Shown here one piece after another: positions 40,675-49,253 of a DNA stretch of 64,000 bases. Below the pieces are notes generated by a model, which was not told the origin of the DNA, made no database searches, and saw only the letters and a list, made by a program, of their open reading frames with translations. The stretch is from the NCBI GenBank assembly GCA_016845065.1, contig JAERTG010000082.1, positions 62,001-126,000 of the forward strand, written 5' to 3'. Both the position numbers and the translations under genes were made by a program. Within the stretch, counting starts at the first letter, position 1, and every line of letters starts with the position of its first letter. Source of the stretch: Fidelibacterota bacterium. Lineage in GTDB: Bacteria > Fidelibacterota > UBA8477 > JABMPR01.

Positions 40675-40748
40675 TGGTCGATACTGGATTCGAACCAGTG
40701 ACCTCCCGGATGTGAACCGAGCGCTCTAACCAGCTGAGCCAATCGACC
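40675..40748 (-). tRNA. tRNA-Val (CAC)
   Basis: A full cloverleaf reads on the minus strand. The acceptor stem GGTCGAT / ATCGACC pairs completely, with discriminator A. The D arm has GCTC-AGCTGGTTA-GAGC. The anticodon stem CTCGG / CCGGG holds loop TTCACAT, giving anticodon CAC (Val, GTG codons). The T arm is ACTGG-TTCGAAT-CCAGT. The 3' CCA is not encoded (CAA follows the discriminator). Confidence 0.95.
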
Positions 40749-40888: not shown

Positions 40889-41476
40889 CTAACAGAGGAG
40901 GTTTACCCAGGCTGATCGGATCATTTCAATAGCCAAAGCTACCAGCAGTAGTCCCATGACACGACTCATAATTTCCAATCCCTGCTCTCCCAGGAATTTT
41001 TTAATAAAGCGGGCATAATACATAGCCAGCCAAAAAATAAACAGATTCAACAACATGGCCATCAAGGGAACCCAAAATCCATACTGGGATACCAGAATGA
41101 TTATTGCCGTGATGGCTCCTGGCCCTGCTATGAGGGGGGTGGCCATGGGAATAACAATGTCTTTTGAATAGTCCTTGTCATCACCCAGCGTAACACCCAG
41201 TACATAAAGTAGTCCCAATGAAAGTAAAATGACTCCACCACCCACCTGGAATGAAAACATAGATATGCTAAAAAACTCAAGAATCCCTTCTCCCACAAAG
41301 ACAAAAAGGGTAAGCAAGATGAGAGAAACCCGAATTGCTCTGTGTGCGCTACGTTTTGCGCGCTCTTCAGGATAATCCTTAGTCAATGTCATAAACACGG
41401 GTAGTCCACCAAATGGATCCATAATGACCAACAGGGTCACAAAAGCATGCATAAAAGAATTAAAATCTAGTGTCAT
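40889..41476 (-). CDS. MarC-family membrane protein
   Basis: A 195-aa integral membrane protein (UPF0056/MarC) with about six helices. Landmarks are VIMDPFGGLPVFMTLTKDYP, RISLILLTLFVFVGE-like segments, VGGGVILLSLGLL, PMATPLIAGPGAITAII and the C-terminal EIMSRVMGLLLVALAIEMI. Function is unproven; a permease role is sometimes suggested. It overlaps aroB by 4 bases and is the last gene of the aromatic operon, which is an unusual neighbour. Confidence 0.9.
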   Translation of the reverse strand: MTLDFNSFMHAFVTLLVIMDPFGGLPVFMTLTKDYPEERAKRSAHRAIRVSLILLTLFVFVGEGILEFFSISMFSFQVGGGVILLSLGLLYVLGVTLGDDKDYSKDIVIPMATPLIAGPGAITAIIILVSQYGFWVPLMAMLLNLFIFWLAMYYARFIKKFLGEQGLEIMSRVMGLLLVALAIEMIRSAWVNLLC

Positions 41477-42588
41477 TCCCTACCCTCCCAGGCAGTTTTA
41501 ATGGCATCAACAGCCAGTTTTATCATTAACATCGGAATGCCCGGCTGTACATATGCATCACCAAGCCCATGCAGCAAAACAAAGTTCAGTTGTGATTTCG
41601 CTACCTTCTTATCGAGACGAGTTGCTTTCTCAATAGCCTCCGGGTTTAAAGACTTTAGTGGAAGTTGAAGAGGAATTCTTTTCAACATGGTTGACAGGCT
41701 ATCCCAATCCTCCGAAGATAGATCCCCAACCTGGTTGGATAGCCACCCTGCACCATACATCCCAAGAATTACAGCTTCACCATGCCGGACTATACCATAT
41801 CCAAGGGTAGACTCAATGGCATGACCAAGAGTATGTCCAAAATTCAGGATACGGCGTAAATCTGACTCCTTCTCGTCAGATTCAACAACCGCGGCTTTTA
41901 GTTCACAGCTTCGAGATATTGCCTGAATGAGAATATCGCTAGAATCTGGCGATATGCACGCATCCATATTGTCAACAAGGAACTTAAGGTATTTGGTATC
42001 TCGAATAACACCCATCTTAAACATTTCAGCATATCCTGAAATACGATCTTGGATTTCCAAGGTTTTCAGGGTTTCCACATCCATGATGACTAAATCAGGC
42101 TGATAAAAGCTACCAATCAAGTTCTTTCCGCTGGAGTGATTGACACCTGTCTTACCACCTACAGCGGCATCAACCATTGACAGGAGTGTGGTTGGAATAT
42201 GAACCAATTTGACCCCACGAAACAGAATGCTGGCTACAAATCCACCCAAATCTGTTACCACCCCACCCCCAAGAGTAAGTATGGTCCCTGAGCGTTCCAT
42301 TCCCTGAGCAATCAAGGCAGACATGACCTGCTCCGCTGAGGCAAGGGTTTTGTATTCCTCACCCATAGGTATCAAGATGGTTCTGGTTACAAAGTCAGCT
42401 TGTTTGAAGGCTTCACGAATGGGTCCACCATATAGATCATTGATTTTAGCATTGCTAATAATGCCTACAGGTCCAGTTGCGTTAATTCCTGAGAGTAACT
42501 CTGCCACCGATCTTATCAAATTCCTACCAACACAAATCTCGTAAGAGCCAGTGCTGTGAGTAATTTTTATGGTTGATGAATCAGACAT
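41473..42588 (-). CDS. aroB: 3-dehydroquinate synthase
   Basis: Second step of the shikimate pathway: converts DAHP to 3-dehydroquinate, NAD+ and metal dependent. Seen are GGGVVTDLGGFVASILFRGV, TTLLSMVDAAVGGKTGVN, KNLIGSFYQP and the metal ligands in ILNFGHTLGHAIE and YGIVRHGEAVILGM. The length of 371 aa is normal. It overlaps aroK by 8 bases and marC by 4 bases. Confidence 0.96.
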   Translation of the reverse strand: MSDSSTIKITHSTGSYEICVGRNLIRSVAELLSGINATGPVGIISNAKINDLYGGPIREAFKQADFVTRTILIPMGEEYKTLASAEQVMSALIAQGMERSGTILTLGGGVVTDLGGFVASILFRGVKLVHIPTTLLSMVDAAVGGKTGVNHSSGKNLIGSFYQPDLVIMDVETLKTLEIQDRISGYAEMFKMGVIRDTKYLKFLVDNMDACISPDSSDILIQAISRSCELKAAVVESDEKESDLRRILNFGHTLGHAIESTLGYGIVRHGEAVILGMYGAGWLSNQVGDLSSEDWDSLSTMLKRIPLQLPLKSLNPEAIEKATRLDKKVAKSQLNFVLLHGLGDAYVQPGIPMLMIKLAVDAIKTAWEGRE

Positions 42589-43102
42589 GGTAGTTTTCCA
42601 ATCGCAGCATTATGTCATTCGCAATTATGTCTGGAGGTCTTTGACCTGTATTAATGTGGAGTGAAGCGGCCTCGGCGTAACCTACCTGACGACTATCCAA
42701 TATCTCCTGCAGTTTGTTAATAGTATCCTTACATTCATTTAACAGTGGGCGATGATCAGAATGCTCCAATCGAGCTGCAGCTTCTTCAGGAGTAACATCT
42801 AACCATATTGTCAGCTGATCCTTCAGATAATTTACATTCTCAGCTCGGGTGATAATACCTCCACCACAAGCAATAACGGTTTCATCCAATGATGCTGTTT
42901 CCATTAGAACCTGGGTCTCATAGCCACGAAACCCGTCTTCACCCTGGGCTTCAAAAATGGTAGGAATATTATTCCCAGCGATTTTTACAATTTCGTTGTC
43001 AATATCCAGCAATCGCCAGCTTAGAGCATCGGCCAGAAGTCCGCCAATGGTGCTTTTTCCAGCACCCATCAAGCCAATCAAGTATATTTTTGTGATACCC
43101 AT
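42581..43102 (-). CDS. aroK: Shikimate kinase
   Basis: Phosphorylates shikimate at the 3-hydroxyl. A 173-aa P-loop kinase with Walker A GLMGAGKSTIG, the shikimate-binding GFRGYE (Arg within FRxxE), ACGGG and the lid ARLEHSDHRPLL. It overlaps aroB by 8 bases and follows aroC by 21 bases. The aroK/aroL distinction cannot be made here. Confidence 0.94.
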   Translation of the reverse strand: MGITKIYLIGLMGAGKSTIGGLLADALSWRLLDIDNEIVKIAGNNIPTIFEAQGEDGFRGYETQVLMETASLDETVIACGGGIITRAENVNYLKDQLTIWLDVTPEEAAARLEHSDHRPLLNECKDTINKLQEILDSRQVGYAEAASLHINTGQRPPDIIANDIMLRLENYHV

Positions 43103-43123: not shown

Positions 43124-44278
43124 CTATACACCAGTGGCAGCCATATGCGCTTTTACTTGATCCAGTGAGTCTCCACCGAATTTTTCAAGAATAGCATCAG
43201 TGAGAACCAAAGCCATCATGGCTTCGCCGATTACGGAAGCCGCTGGAACGGCACAGGCATCTGTTCGTTCCTTGTGAGCTATACCCGGCTCGCGGGTTTG
43301 GATATCTACAGAGTGCAAAGGTTTCGCAAGAGTGGGAATGGGTTTCATAGTGACTTGGACCTGAATTATTTCACCGTTGGACATACCACCTTCGATGCCT
43401 CCAGCATGATTAGTAGCTCTTCGAATTGTGTCATCCTTTTTAATAATTTCATCATGGACTTGAGAGCCAGTCACTATACCAACGTCCAGACCATCCCCAA
43501 TACTAACAGATTTCATGGCATTAATAGACATCATAGCTGCAGCGAGGCGGGCATCCAGCTTACGATCCCAATGTGCATAGGATCCCAGACCAGGCGGGAG
43601 TCCAGACGCCAGAACTTCAAAAACACCCCCTACTGAATCACCGACTTTCCGCGTTTCATCAATATGTTTGATCATAGCCTCACCAGCCGTTTGATCCAAA
43701 CATCTCACATCCGAAGCATCTGCATCAGGGTTAATGTTTATAGTTAGCCCTTTTGAATCAACAGTGGCTTTAACCGGACCAATCTGAGTCACGTGACTAT
43801 ATACTTGAATACCCAACTCAGACAAAAAGGCACGGCAAACTGCACCAAGGCCAACTCGCATGGCAGTTTCACGTGCAGAAGACCTTTCCAGAACATTACG
43901 GATATCATTAAAACCAAATTTTTGAATCCCAGCTAGATCGGCGTGCCCTGGGCGAGGCAGAGTAACCTCAGGAACTGGATGAGATGGAACTTCGTGTGAC
44001 ATCTTATCCAGTTTCCAGTTTTCCCAATCCTTATTCTGGATCCAGAGAGCTATGGGAGATCCAAGCGTGTATCCATGACGTAAACCGCTGGTGATTTCAG
44101 CATGATCTTTTTCAATGGTCATACGCCCACCTCGACCATGACCCTTTTGCCTACGCGCTAGATCTCTGGCAATAAACTTTTCCGAAAGCGGTACTCCAGC
44201 AGGAAAGCCTTCAAGAATCCCTGACAGACCTTTGCCGTGCGATTCCCCTGCAGTTAAAAATTTTAGATGTTGCAGCAT
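43124..44278 (-). CDS. aroC: Chorismate synthase
   Basis: Last step of the shikimate pathway: anti-1,4 elimination of phosphate from EPSP using reduced FMN. The start has LTAGESHGKGLSGILEGFPAG, then RQKGHGRGGRMTIE. ERSSARETAMRVGLGAVCR and the late TNHAGGIEGGMSNGE are also signatures. The length of 384 aa fits the longer bacterial type. Confidence 0.96.
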   Translation of the reverse strand: MLQHLKFLTAGESHGKGLSGILEGFPAGVPLSEKFIARDLARRQKGHGRGGRMTIEKDHAEITSGLRHGYTLGSPIALWIQNKDWENWKLDKMSHEVPSHPVPEVTLPRPGHADLAGIQKFGFNDIRNVLERSSARETAMRVGLGAVCRAFLSELGIQVYSHVTQIGPVKATVDSKGLTININPDADASDVRCLDQTAGEAMIKHIDETRKVGDSVGGVFEVLASGLPPGLGSYAHWDRKLDARLAAAMMSINAMKSVSIGDGLDVGIVTGSQVHDEIIKKDDTIRRATNHAGGIEGGMSNGEIIQVQVTMKPIPTLAKPLHSVDIQTREPGIAHKERTDACAVPAASVIGEAMMALVLTDAILEKFGGDSLDQVKAHMAATGV

Positions 44279-44342: not shown

Positions 44343-45209
44343 CTACTCGAACTTGCGTTTAAAACCGGTAATTTTATTATGAACTGCCTCACGCATTTCA
44401 TTCATCTTGATCCGCTTCCAATCCTGGGGTCCGAACCATACATCAACTGAAGCCATAGCCTGATAGAGATACATGTCCAAACCGGAAACTGTTTGACAAT
44501 CGGAGAAAATTGCCTCAGATAACAGTCGCGTATTCAAAGGGTTAAATATGGTGTCAACTACGACATCAATTGATTCCAGGATATCTCCATCCAGGGGACT
44601 TTGATTCTGTTTAGGTTTCATGCCAATGGGAGTACAATTGACCAGACAATATGCATCCTCAATAGGTGCAACAGCACTCTCATCCCAGGAACAACCTTCC
44701 AGTTTCATACCTTCAGCAGAACTGCCCATGTCCTTAATGAGAACTTTTGCCCTATCCGGATCTCTGGCAACTACTGTGGTTTTGGCAGTTCCAATCCGGG
44801 CTAGCCCAAAGGTGATAGCACGTGCTGCACCACCGCTACCCAGAACGACTACCTTTTTTCCAGCGAGATCAACTCCTGCAGCTTCCAGTGATTTCACAAA
44901 GCCATACCAGTCCGTATTATATCCTGTGAGTTTCCCATCCTGGCGTCTGACACAATTTACTGCACCTATGGGTGCAGTGCGATCGTTCACACTGTCCAAA
45001 AAAGGAATAATATCTTCCTTATGGGGAATGGTTACGTTAAATCCGGCCAGTTTTTTTGCAGAGGGAAGATTTACCCAGCGCTCTAGATCTCCCTGGACAA
45101 CCTTGATCTTTTTGTATTCAGCTTCCAAGCCCAGTTGCTCATATATCCAACCATGCATAAAATCGCTAACACTCTGTCTGAGCGGATCACCAATAACGGC
45201 TAGTTTCAC
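44343..45209 (-). CDS. aroE: Shikimate dehydrogenase
   Basis: NADPH-dependent reduction of 3-dehydroshikimate. A 288-aa protein with substrate motif GDPLRQSVSDFMHG, catalytic Lys in FNVTIPHKE, Asp in YNTDWYGFV and the nucleotide motif VVLGSGGAARAITF. NCTPIGMKP closes the site. In-operon spacing to aroC is 64 bp and to aroA 44 bp. Confidence 0.95.
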   Translation of the reverse strand: MKLAVIGDPLRQSVSDFMHGWIYEQLGLEAEYKKIKVVQGDLERWVNLPSAKKLAGFNVTIPHKEDIIPFLDSVNDRTAPIGAVNCVRRQDGKLTGYNTDWYGFVKSLEAAGVDLAGKKVVVLGSGGAARAITFGLARIGTAKTTVVARDPDRAKVLIKDMGSSAEGMKLEGCSWDESAVAPIEDAYCLVNCTPIGMKPKQNQSPLDGDILESIDVVVDTIFNPLNTRLLSEAIFSDCQTVSGLDMYLYQAMASVDVWFGPQDWKRIKMNEMREAVHNKITGFKRKFE

Positions 45210-45253: not shown

Positions 45254-46513
45254 TTAATTTATCAATATTCGTAGTTCATCAAAGAATCCAGGATATGATA
45301 TATCTACACAATCCGGGTCATCCAGGGTTGCCGGTAATTTGCTAATCAACCCAGCGATACCCAATGTCATTGCAATACGATGATCATGAAAGGTTTTGAC
45401 TTTTCCCCCTTTAAGTGGCGTGGGGCCTTCTACATGAAATCCATCAGGTCGCTCAAATATTTTTGCACCCCAGACACTCAGATTGGTAACAATAGCCGCA
45501 ATCCGATCTGATTCCTTGACGCGCAACTCCTCAGCACCTGTTACAACAGTTTCACCCTCAGCCTGTGTAGCCAAAAGTGCAATGAGCGGTAATTCATCAA
45601 TTAGGTTTGGAATTTGTTCAGGATAAATCTGGATTCCTCTTAGCTGAGATGTCCTGATTCGTATATCCGCAATTGCTTCACCACTGGCCTTCGTTTTGTT
45701 TGCTATCGTTACTTTTGCACCCATCTCCTTTACAGCTTTCAAGAAGGCTGTCCTTGTTGGATTTATCCCAACACCTCGCAGAATCAGATCGGAATCAGGA
45801 ACCAGCAGAGCAGCAGCGATGAAAAAGGCTGCCGCAGAAAAGTCACCTGGTACCATAAAATCTATGGGTTTCAGGGGTTTCGTCAGCTGATGTACAGTCA
45901 CCTCTCGTCCTTTTACCTGGATCCGTGCGCCCATGGCTTTAAGCATCTGCTCAGTGTGATCGCGACTAAAGGCTGGTGATTTTACCGTGGTATGCCCTTT
46001 GGCATGCAGACCGGCTAACAGGATTGCTGATTTTACCTGGGCGCTGGCATATGGCAGCTGGTAATCAAGAGCCCACAAGTCGCGACCGCTCAACATGAGT
46101 GGAAAATATTTTCTCTTATTGGCAGAAATGTTAGCACCCATTTGTTGGAGGGGTCTGAAAACTCTATCCATAGGTCGTTTGCTGAGAGATTGGTCGCCTG
46201 TGAATTGAACATGGATAGGATGTGCTGCTAAAAGACCCATCATCAAACGCGCAGTCGTCCCCGAATTACCGCAGTCAATTCCCAATTCAGGTTGTTTGAA
46301 AGGACGCAGTCCCCCGCCCTGGACATGGACAAAACCATGCTTTTCTTCAATGTGTATTCCACAGTTGATGAGGGCGCGCTGGGTTGTGGAAACATCAGCA
46401 CCGGGATTCAGATTTTCAAGGCGACTAAGGCCATCACTCAGTGCGGTGAACATAAGCGCGCGATGGCTTATTGATTTGTCACCAGGTAGCCTAATTTCTC
46501 CAAGCAAAGCCAT
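45254..46513 (-). CDS. aroA: 5-enolpyruvylshikimate-3-phosphate synthase
   Basis: Transfers enolpyruvyl from PEP to shikimate-3-phosphate. A 419-aa protein with the N-terminal LPGDKSISHRALMFTAL, then GNSGTTARLMMGLLAAHP (PEP-binding), SLSKRPMDRVFRPLQQMGA and the C-terminal TFHDHRIAMTLG with LRVKESDRIAA. It follows aroF by 20 bases. The residue after GNSGT is Thr rather than the common Ala. Confidence 0.96.
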   Translation of the reverse strand: MALLGEIRLPGDKSISHRALMFTALSDGLSRLENLNPGADVSTTQRALINCGIHIEEKHGFVHVQGGGLRPFKQPELGIDCGNSGTTARLMMGLLAAHPIHVQFTGDQSLSKRPMDRVFRPLQQMGANISANKRKYFPLMLSGRDLWALDYQLPYASAQVKSAILLAGLHAKGHTTVKSPAFSRDHTEQMLKAMGARIQVKGREVTVHQLTKPLKPIDFMVPGDFSAAAFFIAAALLVPDSDLILRGVGINPTRTAFLKAVKEMGAKVTIANKTKASGEAIADIRIRTSQLRGIQIYPEQIPNLIDELPLIALLATQAEGETVVTGAEELRVKESDRIAAIVTNLSVWGAKIFERPDGFHVEGPTPLKGGKVKTFHDHRIAMTLGIAGLISKLPATLDDPDCVDISYPGFFDELRILIN

Positions 46514-46533: not shown

Positions 46534-47550
46534 TCAGTCCAGTTTTCTACCAACAGCTTCAGCAACCAGACGTATTCGATCTACAAGCTCCTTAAAATCT
46601 GCTGGTACTAATTGTTGAGGTCCATCACTGAGAGCAACTTCAGGATTAGGATGAACTTCAACCATGACACCCTGGGCTCCAGCTGCTACTCCAGCCAGAG
46701 ACAATGGTAACACTTTAGATCGTTTTCCAGCGGCATGACTGGGATCAACAACTACGGGAAGATGAGTCAGACGCTGGAAGGCTGGAATCGCACTTACATC
46801 AAGTGTATTTCTGGTGTGATCCACATAGGTACGTATACCCCTCTCACATAGAACCAGCTTTTCATTCCCTTCGTTCAATATGTATTCAGCAGCTAAAATT
46901 GTTTCTTTCACTGTCGCTGACATTCCACGCTTTAAAAAGATGGGCATTCCTGTTCGAGCTGCTTCCTTGATAAGTGTGAAGTTCTGCATATTCCGGGTAC
47001 CTATCTGGAGCATGTCTGTGTGCTGGGCCGTGACCTCCAATACTTCTGTATCGGTTACTTCAGTCACCGTAGGCAATCCAACTTCCTGCCCAACCTGCTT
47101 CAAAATTTTTAGCCCCTCAACACCCATACCCTGGAAAGAATAGGGAGATGTTCGTGGCTTGAAGGCCCCACCTCGGAGGAAATGGCCTCCAGCCGCCTTA
47201 ACAGAATCTCCTACTATTTTAGTTTGCTCATATGATTCGATTGAGCAGGGACCGGCGATAATAGATACGTTAGAACCACCAATTTTCGTTCCACCCACAC
47301 TCACGATGGTATCCTGGGGTTGCCATTCTCGTGATGCCAACTTGTAAGGCGTACTAATCTCAATAACGTTTGAAACTTCTGGTAAAGACTGTAGGTGCTG
47401 TTTCCCGCGGAGGGGTTTGGTTCCCATCACCCCAACAATTGTACGGGTTTCACCTGGAGCAGGTTTGGGTGTGTAGCCCAATTTGGTGATTTCCTGTTGA
47501 ACTCTATCGATAGCTTCAGAAGAAGCGTTTACATTCATTATAACAATCAT
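46534..47550 (-). CDS. aroF: 3-deoxy-7-phosphoheptulonate synthase with N-terminal regulatory-like domain
   Basis: First committed step: condenses PEP and erythrose-4-phosphate. A 338-aa type I-beta enzyme. Residues 1-70 form a ferredoxin/ACT-like domain (MIVIMNVNASSEAIDRVQQE), known from Thermotoga-type DAHP synthases for feedback by Tyr and Phe. The barrel has IIAGPCSIESYEQT, LRGGAFKPRTSPYSFQG, LKRGMSATV and VVDPSHAAGKRS. No chorismate mutase is fused. It lies between tyrA-pheA and aroA. Confidence 0.94.
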   Translation of the reverse strand: MIVIMNVNASSEAIDRVQQEITKLGYTPKPAPGETRTIVGVMGTKPLRGKQHLQSLPEVSNVIEISTPYKLASREWQPQDTIVSVGGTKIGGSNVSIIAGPCSIESYEQTKIVGDSVKAAGGHFLRGGAFKPRTSPYSFQGMGVEGLKILKQVGQEVGLPTVTEVTDTEVLEVTAQHTDMLQIGTRNMQNFTLIKEAARTGMPIFLKRGMSATVKETILAAEYILNEGNEKLVLCERGIRTYVDHTRNTLDVSAIPAFQRLTHLPVVVDPSHAAGKRSKVLPLSLAGVAAGAQGVMVEVHPNPEVALSDGPQQLVPADFKELVDRIRLVAEAVGRKLD

Positions 47551-47608: not shown

Positions 47609-48928
47609 TTAAATCGATGTTCCTGTTCGCTCCACAACCAGGAACAATGTCTTATTATCCTTCAGGTCTTGAATACCGAATTGGTTTACAATCAACTCAT
47701 ACAGCTCTGCTGCTTGTGCTGGTGCAATGACAGCAGTCGTATCTGAAAATTCTCCCTGATGCAACTTCCTGGCAGCCTCGGCAGTGTCTTCTGATTCCAA
47801 ATGAGGAATGTCAGGAAAATTCTCCCTTAAATACCGTGAGCATTGTTTCAGAGCCTGGGGGTGAGATCGAACTTCAGTTATTTCCCCGTGATCAACTCCA
47901 GCCTTGGTAATGAGGCATTGATTTACCTGGATATGAAACATGGATCTTACTTTACAGCGGGCCTTTGCCAGTGCGTGAATACTCTCATGTACTACACCTC
48001 CCCTGGCATTTTCCATGGCAATTATTCCACGATCAATATCATAGGTGTAGAGACTTTCCATGACATTTCGACTGGTTAGACAAGGCTTGGTATCGATGTC
48101 TCCTAAATTTTCCTTCTGCACGTAATTGAGCGCTGCTTCCTCAGAAAAGCTCCCTGGGATCCCCTGGTATCCAATGACATCAGGAGGAGAATCCGGACGA
48201 TATACACGGGCTTTCACGGCATGAACTGATCGTGAGAAATCAGTGAGCATTTCTGGTGTATATGGATTGTAATACTGCAAATCGTGGAAAAGCTCTTCTG
48301 TATCCTGACAGGTTTGTTCAACGACATGATGAACTTGTCTAAATCCATGTGTGTCCACTGCAGTGGGTTGAATATCCATACCCTTCATAACCCGTCCTAC
48401 AAAGTGAGTTATTCCTTGAGAGCGGGCGGCTAGCTTATCATGTTCCTCCACTTCAAGGTCTATGAGTCTACAACCCCAGGATTCAAAAGTAGTGCGCCAA
48501 TTGGTTTCAATCGTCGCGTCGATGCGTGTTGGACAGAACACCATTCTCAGATCACGATCTCGCTTATATGAATCTGGTCCAAACATGGGGTGGGTATTTA
48601 ATATTTGCACTTCTTGAGGTAGAGCGGCTATCATCCAGTCCCGAATACGGGTTTTTACAGATGCCACATCAATCAAAAGCTGTTTCGGTCGACTCAGTTG
48701 AGATATTTCCTGTAATAAACGCTTCATCTGGCTGATTGGAACAGCGAGAAAAACGGTTTCCTGCCTCATGACCGTCTCAAGATCTGCCCACTCATAGCCT
48801 GAGGCTTCAGCCAGCATAGATAGATCACGCTTATCCGTGACCATTGGCTGAAATTCGTTGCTCAAAAGATCAGCAAGCAAAGCACCAAAGCGTCCGTAGC
48901 CAACTATTCCTATCTTATTCTGACCCAT
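47609..48928 (-). CDS. Prephenate dehydrogenase-prephenate dehydratase fusion
   Basis: Two catalytic domains in one chain of about 439 aa. The N-terminal TyrA part (1-265) has KIGIVGYGRFGALLADLL and the catalytic His in LNTHPMFGPD. The C-terminal PheA part (about 270-439) has GYQGIPGSFSEEAAL, MENARGGVVHE, SHPQALKQC, DTAEAARKL and KTLFLVV. In known dehydratases the last motif reads TRF; here Arg is Leu. There is no room for a C-terminal ACT domain, so feedback control may be missing or act through the attenuator. ATG 48928 is preferred because AAGGA lies 9 bases upstream; a TTG start at 48949 has none. First enzyme gene of the aromatic operon, after the leader. Confidence 0.88.
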   Translation of the reverse strand: MGQNKIGIVGYGRFGALLADLLSNEFQPMVTDKRDLSMLAEASGYEWADLETVMRQETVFLAVPISQMKRLLQEISQLSRPKQLLIDVASVKTRIRDWMIAALPQEVQILNTHPMFGPDSYKRDRDLRMVFCPTRIDATIETNWRTTFESWGCRLIDLEVEEHDKLAARSQGITHFVGRVMKGMDIQPTAVDTHGFRQVHHVVEQTCQDTEELFHDLQYYNPYTPEMLTDFSRSVHAVKARVYRPDSPPDVIGYQGIPGSFSEEAALNYVQKENLGDIDTKPCLTSRNVMESLYTYDIDRGIIAMENARGGVVHESIHALAKARCKVRSMFHIQVNQCLITKAGVDHGEITEVRSHPQALKQCSRYLRENFPDIPHLESEDTAEAARKLHQGEFSDTTAVIAPAQAAELYELIVNQFGIQDLKDNKTLFLVVERTGTSI

Positions 48929-48995
48929 TGTGTTAAATCCTTCACTCAATTTTCACTCTTCGCCGTTCTCTCATCTTTTTTCTTCACTTGGAAGC

Positions 48996-49025
48996 AAAAA
49001 AAAACCCCCGTCAATTGACGAGGGT
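48996..49025 (-). terminator. Attenuator terminator of the aromatic operon
   Basis: On the minus strand ACCCUCGUC pairs with GACGGGGGU around the loop AAUU (nine pairs, one of them G-U), followed by nine consecutive U. It is a textbook intrinsic terminator located between the leader peptide (49056-49100) and the first gene (start 48928). It would stop transcription before tyrA-pheA unless the competing antiterminator forms. Confidence 0.9.
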
Positions 49026-49062
49026 GAAAGTTTATAAACGTACAAATTTAAACCATCACCCC
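49021..49062 (-). promoter_or_regulatory. Antiterminator hairpin competing with the terminator
   Basis: On the minus strand GGGGUGA (49062-49056) pairs with UCACCCU (49027-49021), and the inner GUUUA (49053-49049) with UAAAC (49034-49030), with a U-U mismatch and a G-U pair between. About 13 pairs result. The 3' arm shares 49021-49025 with the terminator 5' arm, so only one hairpin can form. The 5' arm overlaps the last sense codon and stop codon of the leader peptide, so a ribosome finishing the leader would mask it. Confidence 0.75.
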
Positions 49063-49100
49063 GATCGTTTAAAAAAGTAATATGATGCATTCCAATTCAT
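49056..49100 (-). CDS. Tyr/Phe leader peptide (14 aa)
   Basis: ATG at 49100 to TGA at 49058-49056 encodes MNWNASYYFFKRSG. The tandem Tyr-Tyr-Phe-Phe codons (49082-49071) are the expected sensors for an operon that makes Tyr and Phe. Transcription-attenuation leader peptides of this kind are known from proteobacterial phe and trp operons. The codon run ends 9 bases before the antiterminator 5' arm. No ribosome-binding site is present, and the -10 box lies only 9 bases upstream, so the message may be leaderless. A longer in-frame reading back to 49271 has no family similarity and crosses the promoter. Confidence 0.82.
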   Translation of the reverse strand: MNWNASYYFFKRSG

Positions 49101-49109
49101 TTCGAAGTG

Positions 49110-49137
49110 AATATAGACCTGAGTCGTGCACATGCAA
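49110..49137 (-). promoter_or_regulatory. Promoter of the attenuated aromatic operon
   Basis: On the minus strand TTGCAT (49137-49132), a 16-base spacer, then TATATT (49115-49110). The -10 box is a good match, the -35 partial. Transcription would start close to the leader ATG at 49100. Confidence 0.5.
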
Positions 49138-49253
49138 AGATTTTGAGATTTTATTTCATATCGTCGAATGAAACACATCCCCCAGTGTGTCGGAGGAATC
49201 GAGTATTGGTCTCTTTCCCTGCACCCGCTATATTTCATGGATAAGAGTCCACC

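Follow-up and report, generated by a model that had tools for sequence, protein, structure and literature searches.

A putative ribosome-mediated attenuator with tyrosine and phenylalanine codons preceding tyrA-pheA and shikimate genes in Candidatus Neomarinimicrobiota, and related leaders upstream of pheA and trpE

The 64,000-nucleotide stretch of DNA analysed here (the window) carries on its minus strand a series of genes for aromatic amino acid biosynthesis, recognised by their Pfam domains, that begins with a tyrA-pheA fusion encoding prephenate dehydrogenase and prephenate dehydratase (47609..48928). It is followed by aroF (46534..47550), which encodes a DAHP synthase with a ferredoxin-like N-domain, aroA (EPSP synthase, 45254..46513), aroE (shikimate dehydrogenase, 44343..45209), aroC (chorismate synthase, 43124..44278), aroK (shikimate kinase, 42581..43102) and aroB (3-dehydroquinate synthase, 41473..42588). 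A Pfam-identified MarC-family membrane protein (40889-41476, minus strand) overlaps the end of aroB and may belong to the operon. A preliminary description of this DNA had spoken of a complete aro-tyrA-pheA operon; tyrA-pheA and aroF, A, E, C, K and B are indeed present, but Pfam detected neither dehydroquinate dehydratase nor chorismate mutase among the eight proteins scanned, a chorismate mutase (CM_2) being located elsewhere in the genome and found in 16 of the 19 genomes of the genus. No ACT domain was reported by Pfam in the tyrA-pheA product, in which the prephenate dehydratase does not extend past its catalytic domain, and Phe feedback on the enzyme may therefore be missing. None of the 20 genomes of the window's family was found to contain trpE, in keeping with a leader dedicated to Tyr and Phe.

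Upstream of tyrA-pheA, with its stop codon 127 nt before the tyrA-pheA ATG (more than 200 nt in several relatives), is a short ORF encoding the peptide MNWNASYYFFKRSG (49056..49100, minus strand), which starts at an ATG at 49100, comprises 14 codons and ends in TGA (49058-49056). Its putative control codons, TAT TAC TTT TTT (49071..49082, minus strand), specify Tyr-Tyr-Phe-Phe, as the preliminary description had read them. A further in-frame ATG is located at 49178, upstream of the promoter match described below, and the ORF scan lists the same ORF from that position; an in-frame start further upstream is likewise present in several relatives and absent in others. When both strands of the 64 kb were scanned, this was the sole short ORF with at least four Tyr or Phe per eight residues and a terminator behind it. 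Ten Markov-shuffled windows yielded a mean of 0.2 such hits (0.0 when four of five residues were demanded), and the element is thus not expected by chance. A non-conserved Trp codon occupies position 3 in the window and in ten relatives of the genus, even though the genus is without trpE.

The 5′ arm of a predicted antiterminator (49049..49061, minus strand) begins 9 nt past the last Phe codon and contains the stop codon of the leader, and its 3′ arm is found at 49022..49034. One set of pairs joins GGGUGA to UCACCC (49061-49056 with 49027-49022) and a second set GGUUUA to UAAACU (49054-49049 with 49034-49029), for a total of 12 pairs and a predicted energy of −12.5 kcal/mol. The terminator hairpin (49004..49025, minus strand; arms 49025-49017 and 49012-49004) has nine pairs, −15.4 kcal/mol by prediction, and runs into a U-tract of nine T (48996..49004), placing a predicted intrinsic terminator between the leader and the first structural gene. 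The two hairpins overlap by 4 nt; an additional G49062-U49021 pair brings the antiterminator to 13 pairs and the overlap to 5 nt, matching the earlier account of about 13 pairs at 49062-49021, five shared bases and a terminator at 49025-49004 followed by nine U. The fold of 48990-49110 is better than that of shuffled sequences (z −2.78; 3 of 200 shuffles as good), and the minimum-energy fold of the whole stretch is the terminator form. Antiterminator and terminator are predicted to overlap by 5-11 nt in all 34 leaders of trp-less operons considered below; across the full set of 83 leaders, pairing between the folded stretch and the terminator arm is predicted every time, with no shuffled control. 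The antiterminator is thereby predicted to exclude the terminator, as in an attenuator, and the spacing suggests that a stalled ribosome would leave it exposed. A 1:2 pause or protector hairpin is not conserved (mean z of the 5′ part +0.63 relative to shuffles; the antiterminator G-run is sequestered upstream in 12 of the 34 leaders), and the element appears to work like a trp attenuator but without this hairpin.

The best promoter match consists of a −35-like hexamer, TTTGCA (49133..49138, minus strand), and a −10-like hexamer, TATATT (49110..49115, minus strand), separated by a 17 nt spacer. The latter ends 9 nt before the leader ATG, and a nearly leaderless transcript is therefore expected. 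Among the 34 trp-less leaders, 22 have their best match ending 6-9 nt ahead of the ATG, as against 6.8% of shuffles, and 20 of 49 leaders upstream of trpE have it ending 6-10 nt ahead, as against 9.1% of shuffles; in the trpE count, six leaders lacking an in-frame ATG (L259, L263, L266, L272, L273, L318) were measured from the stop codon and scored as misses, and the L247 peptide was exchanged by hand for an ATG-started one, as also in the core count given below. Where several in-frame ATGs exist (e.g., L084, L168, L186, L189, L203) the start was chosen by hand, which can favour short promoter distances. A Shine-Dalgarno-like motif is absent in 33 of the 34 trp-less leaders and present in just one of the 49 trpE leaders. 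In Sinorhizobium, trpL has been described as leaderless (PMC7298713).

A covariance model of the element (R1) detected it in 17 of the 19 genus genomes and in the single genome examined from the sister genus; the two genus genomes without it are 72% and 63% complete. The tyrA-pheA fusion is nearly complete in 15 of the 19 genomes and in the sister genus, all 16 of which have the leader, while the two additional R1 genomes (G004 and G017) carry the element near contig ends. Loss of YYFF and of the pairing arms in relatives had been named in advance as the outcome that would tell against the proposal; all 18 leaders retain codons for Tyr and Phe together with the two predicted hairpins, and YYFF itself is retained in 16 of the 17 from the genus, L010 having YYYF and the sister genus (L016) NYFYF. 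The leaders read SYYFF, TYYFF, KYYFF and TYYYF, with NYFYF in the sister genus. Codons flanking YYFF vary within the genus while YYFF stays, and one extra T past this block in L007 alters the end of the peptide and not YYFF.

In an alignment of 16 sequences, 91.5% of the antiterminator cells and 99.3% of the terminator cells are paired, falling to 33-55% and 42-62%, respectively, when the partners are slid by 1-3 columns. The compensatory changes that the preliminary description had proposed to look for do occur in this alignment, but they are few (two pairs of the antiterminator and one of the terminator changed on both sides), because the arms are highly conserved, and covariation is modest. 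The covariation score was reached by 46 of 500 shuffles for the antiterminator and 26 of 500 for the terminator, so that, given the few two-sided changes, covariation supports the arms weakly and is not taken as proof of them; in a second alignment the structure slid by three columns scored higher (0.178 vs 0.161). Past the U-tract of L003, L004, L006, L008, L009 and L014 is a second short hairpin (ATCAAGC...GCTTGAT type), absent in the window, which looks like a repeated element, and by eye a stretch of ∼140 nt between terminator and tyrA-pheA in L010 is present twice in tandem.

Applied to 245 genomes of the phylum, R1 gave only weak hits outside the two genera; 12 of these were read and all were judged ordinary terminators save L069 (G145), where a differently sequenced leader, MATNYYYKFFMNNGLRIRP, directly precedes pheA. 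The phylum was therefore surveyed for prephenate dehydratase, which was found in 139 of the 245 genomes. A loose scan of 104 upstream regions (G028 and G033 enter this set twice, and G078 has only tyrA), from which the fetched regions G179:C93, G114:C4 and G182:C10 were left out, returned 19 sense hits in 18 regions, compared with 11 antisense and 0.6 shuffled hits; its antisense hits with a density of 5 are at L169, L173, L179 and L184. A stricter scan of the same 104 gave hits in 18 regions, against 3 on the antisense strand and 0.1 in shuffled sequence, and it alone separates the strands clearly. Sixteen of the 18 regions were counted as Tyr/Phe leaders, belonging to families f11, f19, f20, f22 and f27, and the two others are weak; the weak candidate at L131 and L132 (f15) stands outside the 34 trp-less leaders. 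No leader hit was obtained in 86 of the 104 regions, in several of which pheA directly follows trpA or aroQ. The gene next to the 16 leaders is pheA and not trpE (in three, after a trpE scrap), and their genomes contain no trpE match save a partial one (1.1e-5) in G094, although this absence alone is not proof because the genomes are 58-96% complete. Both Tyr and Phe occur within the 8-residue cluster of all 34 trp-less leaders. At the fused tyrA-pheA of family f6 (∼34-38% identity), 14 upstream regions longer than 4 kb yielded candidates in four loci that were judged not to be leaders, and neither a Phe-rich leader at 16 pheS loci nor an Ile/Leu/Val-rich leader at 5 ilvB loci of the genus was found, some of these upstream regions being short.

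Mixed aromatic leaders were also detected upstream of trpE, a gene present in 77 of the 245 genomes. The survey covered 62 regions (L247-L276 and L293-L324) from 61 of the 77 genomes (G163 twice), the 16 genomes with weaker or partial matches being left out, and a leader with a terminator was found in 49 of the 62 regions, compared with one antisense and 0.4 shuffled hits, and no leader hit in the remaining 13. Their aromatic stretches include YYWWFF (G063), YYSWYWFF (G060, G148, G153, G185) and FFYYWWF (G081), and 46 of the 49 peptides contain all three of Tyr, Trp and Phe (L247 counted with its other peptide). The operon order in G063 is trpE-G-D-C-F-B-A-pheA-tyrA without a gap; by comparison of coordinates, 24 genomes have pheA on the strand of trpE and ∼6-7 kb downstream of it, and in the others pheA is elsewhere or on another contig. 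The cores of family f3, YWWYY or WWYYY, lack Phe, and pheA is on a different contig from trpE in G023 and G029, and the trpE contig of G023 and of G034 bears a weak tyrA match after that gene, a hint that here, too, the codons follow operon content.

Within a 5-residue core, Trp is found in all 49 leaders preceding trpE vs 3 of the 34 trp-less leaders (G183, G149, G168), although this core was chosen after the result for an 8-residue window was known. The latter gave 48 of 49 and 14 of 34, the second figure being raised by 11 genus leaders whose non-conserved position-3 Trp lies inside that window. The counts are given without Fisher p-values, which ignore shared ancestry. Scars of trp loss lie between leader and pheA at three loci. 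In G183 (L171) a TrpE remnant of 29 residues comes after the leader, with an identity of 76-90% to five of six relatives and 72% to the sixth, and is succeeded by the end of TrpA in another frame and then by pheA; in G149 (L204), 23 TrpE residues are joined to the last ∼84 of TrpA; and the fainter trace in G157 (L186) consists of MDKTQLT of TrpE and a few residues resembling the TrpA end, which are not significant by BLAST. These remnants mark a trpE-to-trpA deletion behind the leader, faintly so in G157, and the three leaders have SWYWFF (G183), SGYWFF (G149) and LNLFYFF (G157). Six genera (g28, g15, g62, g52, g53 and g65) have both trpE-bearing and trp-less members; the trpE-bearing members with a leader show W-Y-W or W-F-W (G161 of g53 gave no hit), and the trp-less members, except G183, have lost one or both Trp codons and kept Tyr and Phe. 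Judged by the genus labels, such losses would have occurred in parallel.

By eye, the antiterminator G-run begins 9 nt past the Tyr/Phe cluster in 30 of the 34 trp-less leaders and 10 nt past it in four (L084, L168, L189, L203), the gap in L007 and L151 being counted from Phe-Phe although a further Tyr follows. An automatic measure, in which weak outer pairs are included, also gives 9 nt as the commonest gap (14 of 34 trp-less and 13 of 49 trpE leaders), with a spread of 0-10 nt in trp-less and 0-24 nt in trpE leaders, and the rule is therefore looser in the latter. A ribosome whose A site holds the last control codon covers a further ∼9-10 nt, and the usual 9-nt gap makes a testable statement on the edge of the stalled ribosome.

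The leader ORF, its control codons, the predicted exclusive hairpins, their spacing and conservation, and the agreement of codons with operon content together make it very likely that the element is a ribosome-mediated transcription attenuator responding to Tyr and Phe. The preliminary description had favoured the same mechanism, with which the retention of codons and predicted hairpins in relatives and the further pheA leaders in five families agree. We infer the start site, translation, stalling, termination and amino acid response from the sequence features as follows. RNA polymerase, to judge from the promoter match, would start a few bases before the leader ATG, and a ribosome would translate the leader behind it. 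When charged Tyr- or Phe-tRNA is short, the ribosome would stall on Tyr-Tyr-Phe-Phe with its front edge just short of GGGUGA, the antiterminator would form and take the 5′ arm of the terminator, and transcription would continue into tyrA-pheA and the aro genes. When both amino acids are plentiful, the ribosome would reach the stop codon and cover the antiterminator arm, and transcription would terminate at about 49000. The antiterminator may form first when the leader is not translated, giving read-through, unlike the enterobacterial case, although the minimum-energy fold shows the terminator.

That control codons follow operon products is what codon-specific stalling predicts, and it bears on other ways in which the leader might act. 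The near invariance of YYFF within the genus would also fit a nascent-chain arrest peptide, such as TnaC or the Erm leader, in which the peptide itself rather than tRNA supply stalls the ribosome for an amino acid or other ligand; a fixed sequence would then be expected, yet the aromatic residues are freely reordered across families (YYYKFF, YYFKYFF, FYFYYF, YYSWYWFF) and Trp comes and goes with the trp genes, which makes this very unlikely. It is unlikely, too, that the leader effectively senses Tyr alone or Phe alone, the other codons being incidental: the Phe codons are nearest the antiterminator in most trp-less leaders, but the pairing of Tyr with Phe in every one of the 34 clusters and the persistence of both where Trp codons were lost argue for joint sensing.

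The strong terminator between divergent genes might simply end a short transcript or a small-RNA gene, the ORF being there by chance; with 0.2 occurrences per 64 kb expected by chance, the recurrence of the element with matching codons ahead of these genes in six families leaves that reading barely conceivable. A role of leader genes in boosting downstream translation through reinitiation has also been proposed (PMC4833913), and control of tyrA-pheA might be mainly translational, through reinitiation or coupling from the leader; the distance from leader stop to tyrA-pheA, longer still in several relatives, and the strong terminator between them render this most improbable, and transcription attenuation by a tRNA-dependent stall is the preferred interpretation.

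Among known systems, the enterobacterial pheA attenuator (pheL) has a leader with Phe codons, and the window element resembles it in combining a leader of cognate codons with a terminator and a competing antiterminator before a prephenate dehydratase gene. Unlike pheL, it combines Tyr with Phe codons, lacks a conserved protector hairpin and is expected to be transcribed into a nearly leaderless mRNA, and it also precedes shikimate genes. The E. coli ilvGMEDA and thrABC leaders have codons for several end products and are likewise single leaders serving several products of a shared pathway, though for other amino acids. In the E. coli trp operon (trpL), the position of the ribosome decides between antiterminator II:III and terminator III:IV (PMC1183508), a choice that the predicted anatomy fits, although I:II is not conserved here and the trpE leaders of the phylum mix Tyr, Trp and Phe codons. 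The trpL of Sinorhizobium meliloti trpLE(G) encodes 14 amino acids and is leaderless, the leader RNA starting at the ATG (PMC7298713); the window leader shares the 14 codons and the expected leaderless start, a likeness drawn from the description; S. meliloti is an alphaproteobacterium, and its trpL has Trp only. In Lactococcus lactis, the Leu/phe leader (RF01743) takes its name from Phe and another amino acid (PMC2864571), Leu rather than Tyr, and no Rfam match to it was obtained in the window or at 15 loci.

Rfam identified in the window only a tRNA (40675-40748), and no leader family, T-box or riboswitch. At the 15 loci no leader family reached its gathering score, with His_leader below it on L140 (32.6 bits vs 49) and Trp_leader on L264 (26 vs 41, E 0.36), the latter by its coordinates at the leader there. 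A TPP riboswitch alone reached its own gathering score, with 62 bits at L169:692-790(+). The 2010 work of Lopatovskaya et al. may cover Bacteroidetes. In the sections drawn on here, a survey of Actinobacteria reports no such leader for Phe or Tyr operons (PMC1262725), and among the open PMC matches listed, titles and abstract openings name no Tyr/Phe or Tyr/Trp/Phe leader, nor any leader from this phylum. The mechanism belongs to a known class; what appears new is the multi-aromatic variant and the way its codons track operon content.

Ca. Neomarinimicrobiota probably employ compact, nearly leaderless two-hairpin attenuators whose codons list the products of the operon, Tyr, Trp and Phe before trp-pheA-tyrA and Tyr and Phe once trp is lost, with Trp codons repeatedly lost after trp deletion. 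This would carry attenuation by leader peptides into an uncultured marine phylum and broaden it to leaders that sense two or three aromatic amino acids jointly, and it provides a comparative test of the attenuation model, codon identity against operon content, that includes trp deletions with a visible scar. If true, the phylum would be a natural experiment in change of RNA-sensor specificity.

Beyond the aromatic pathway, hisG was detected in 7 of the 19 genus genomes, the window's own not among them, and all seven loci (L140-L146) have a His-containing leader (e.g., MEMTRINNVPNLIMIHRHNHHHHLM) with a strong terminator behind it (−17 to −21 kcal/mol), so that histidine genes, too, seem to be under peptide attenuation.
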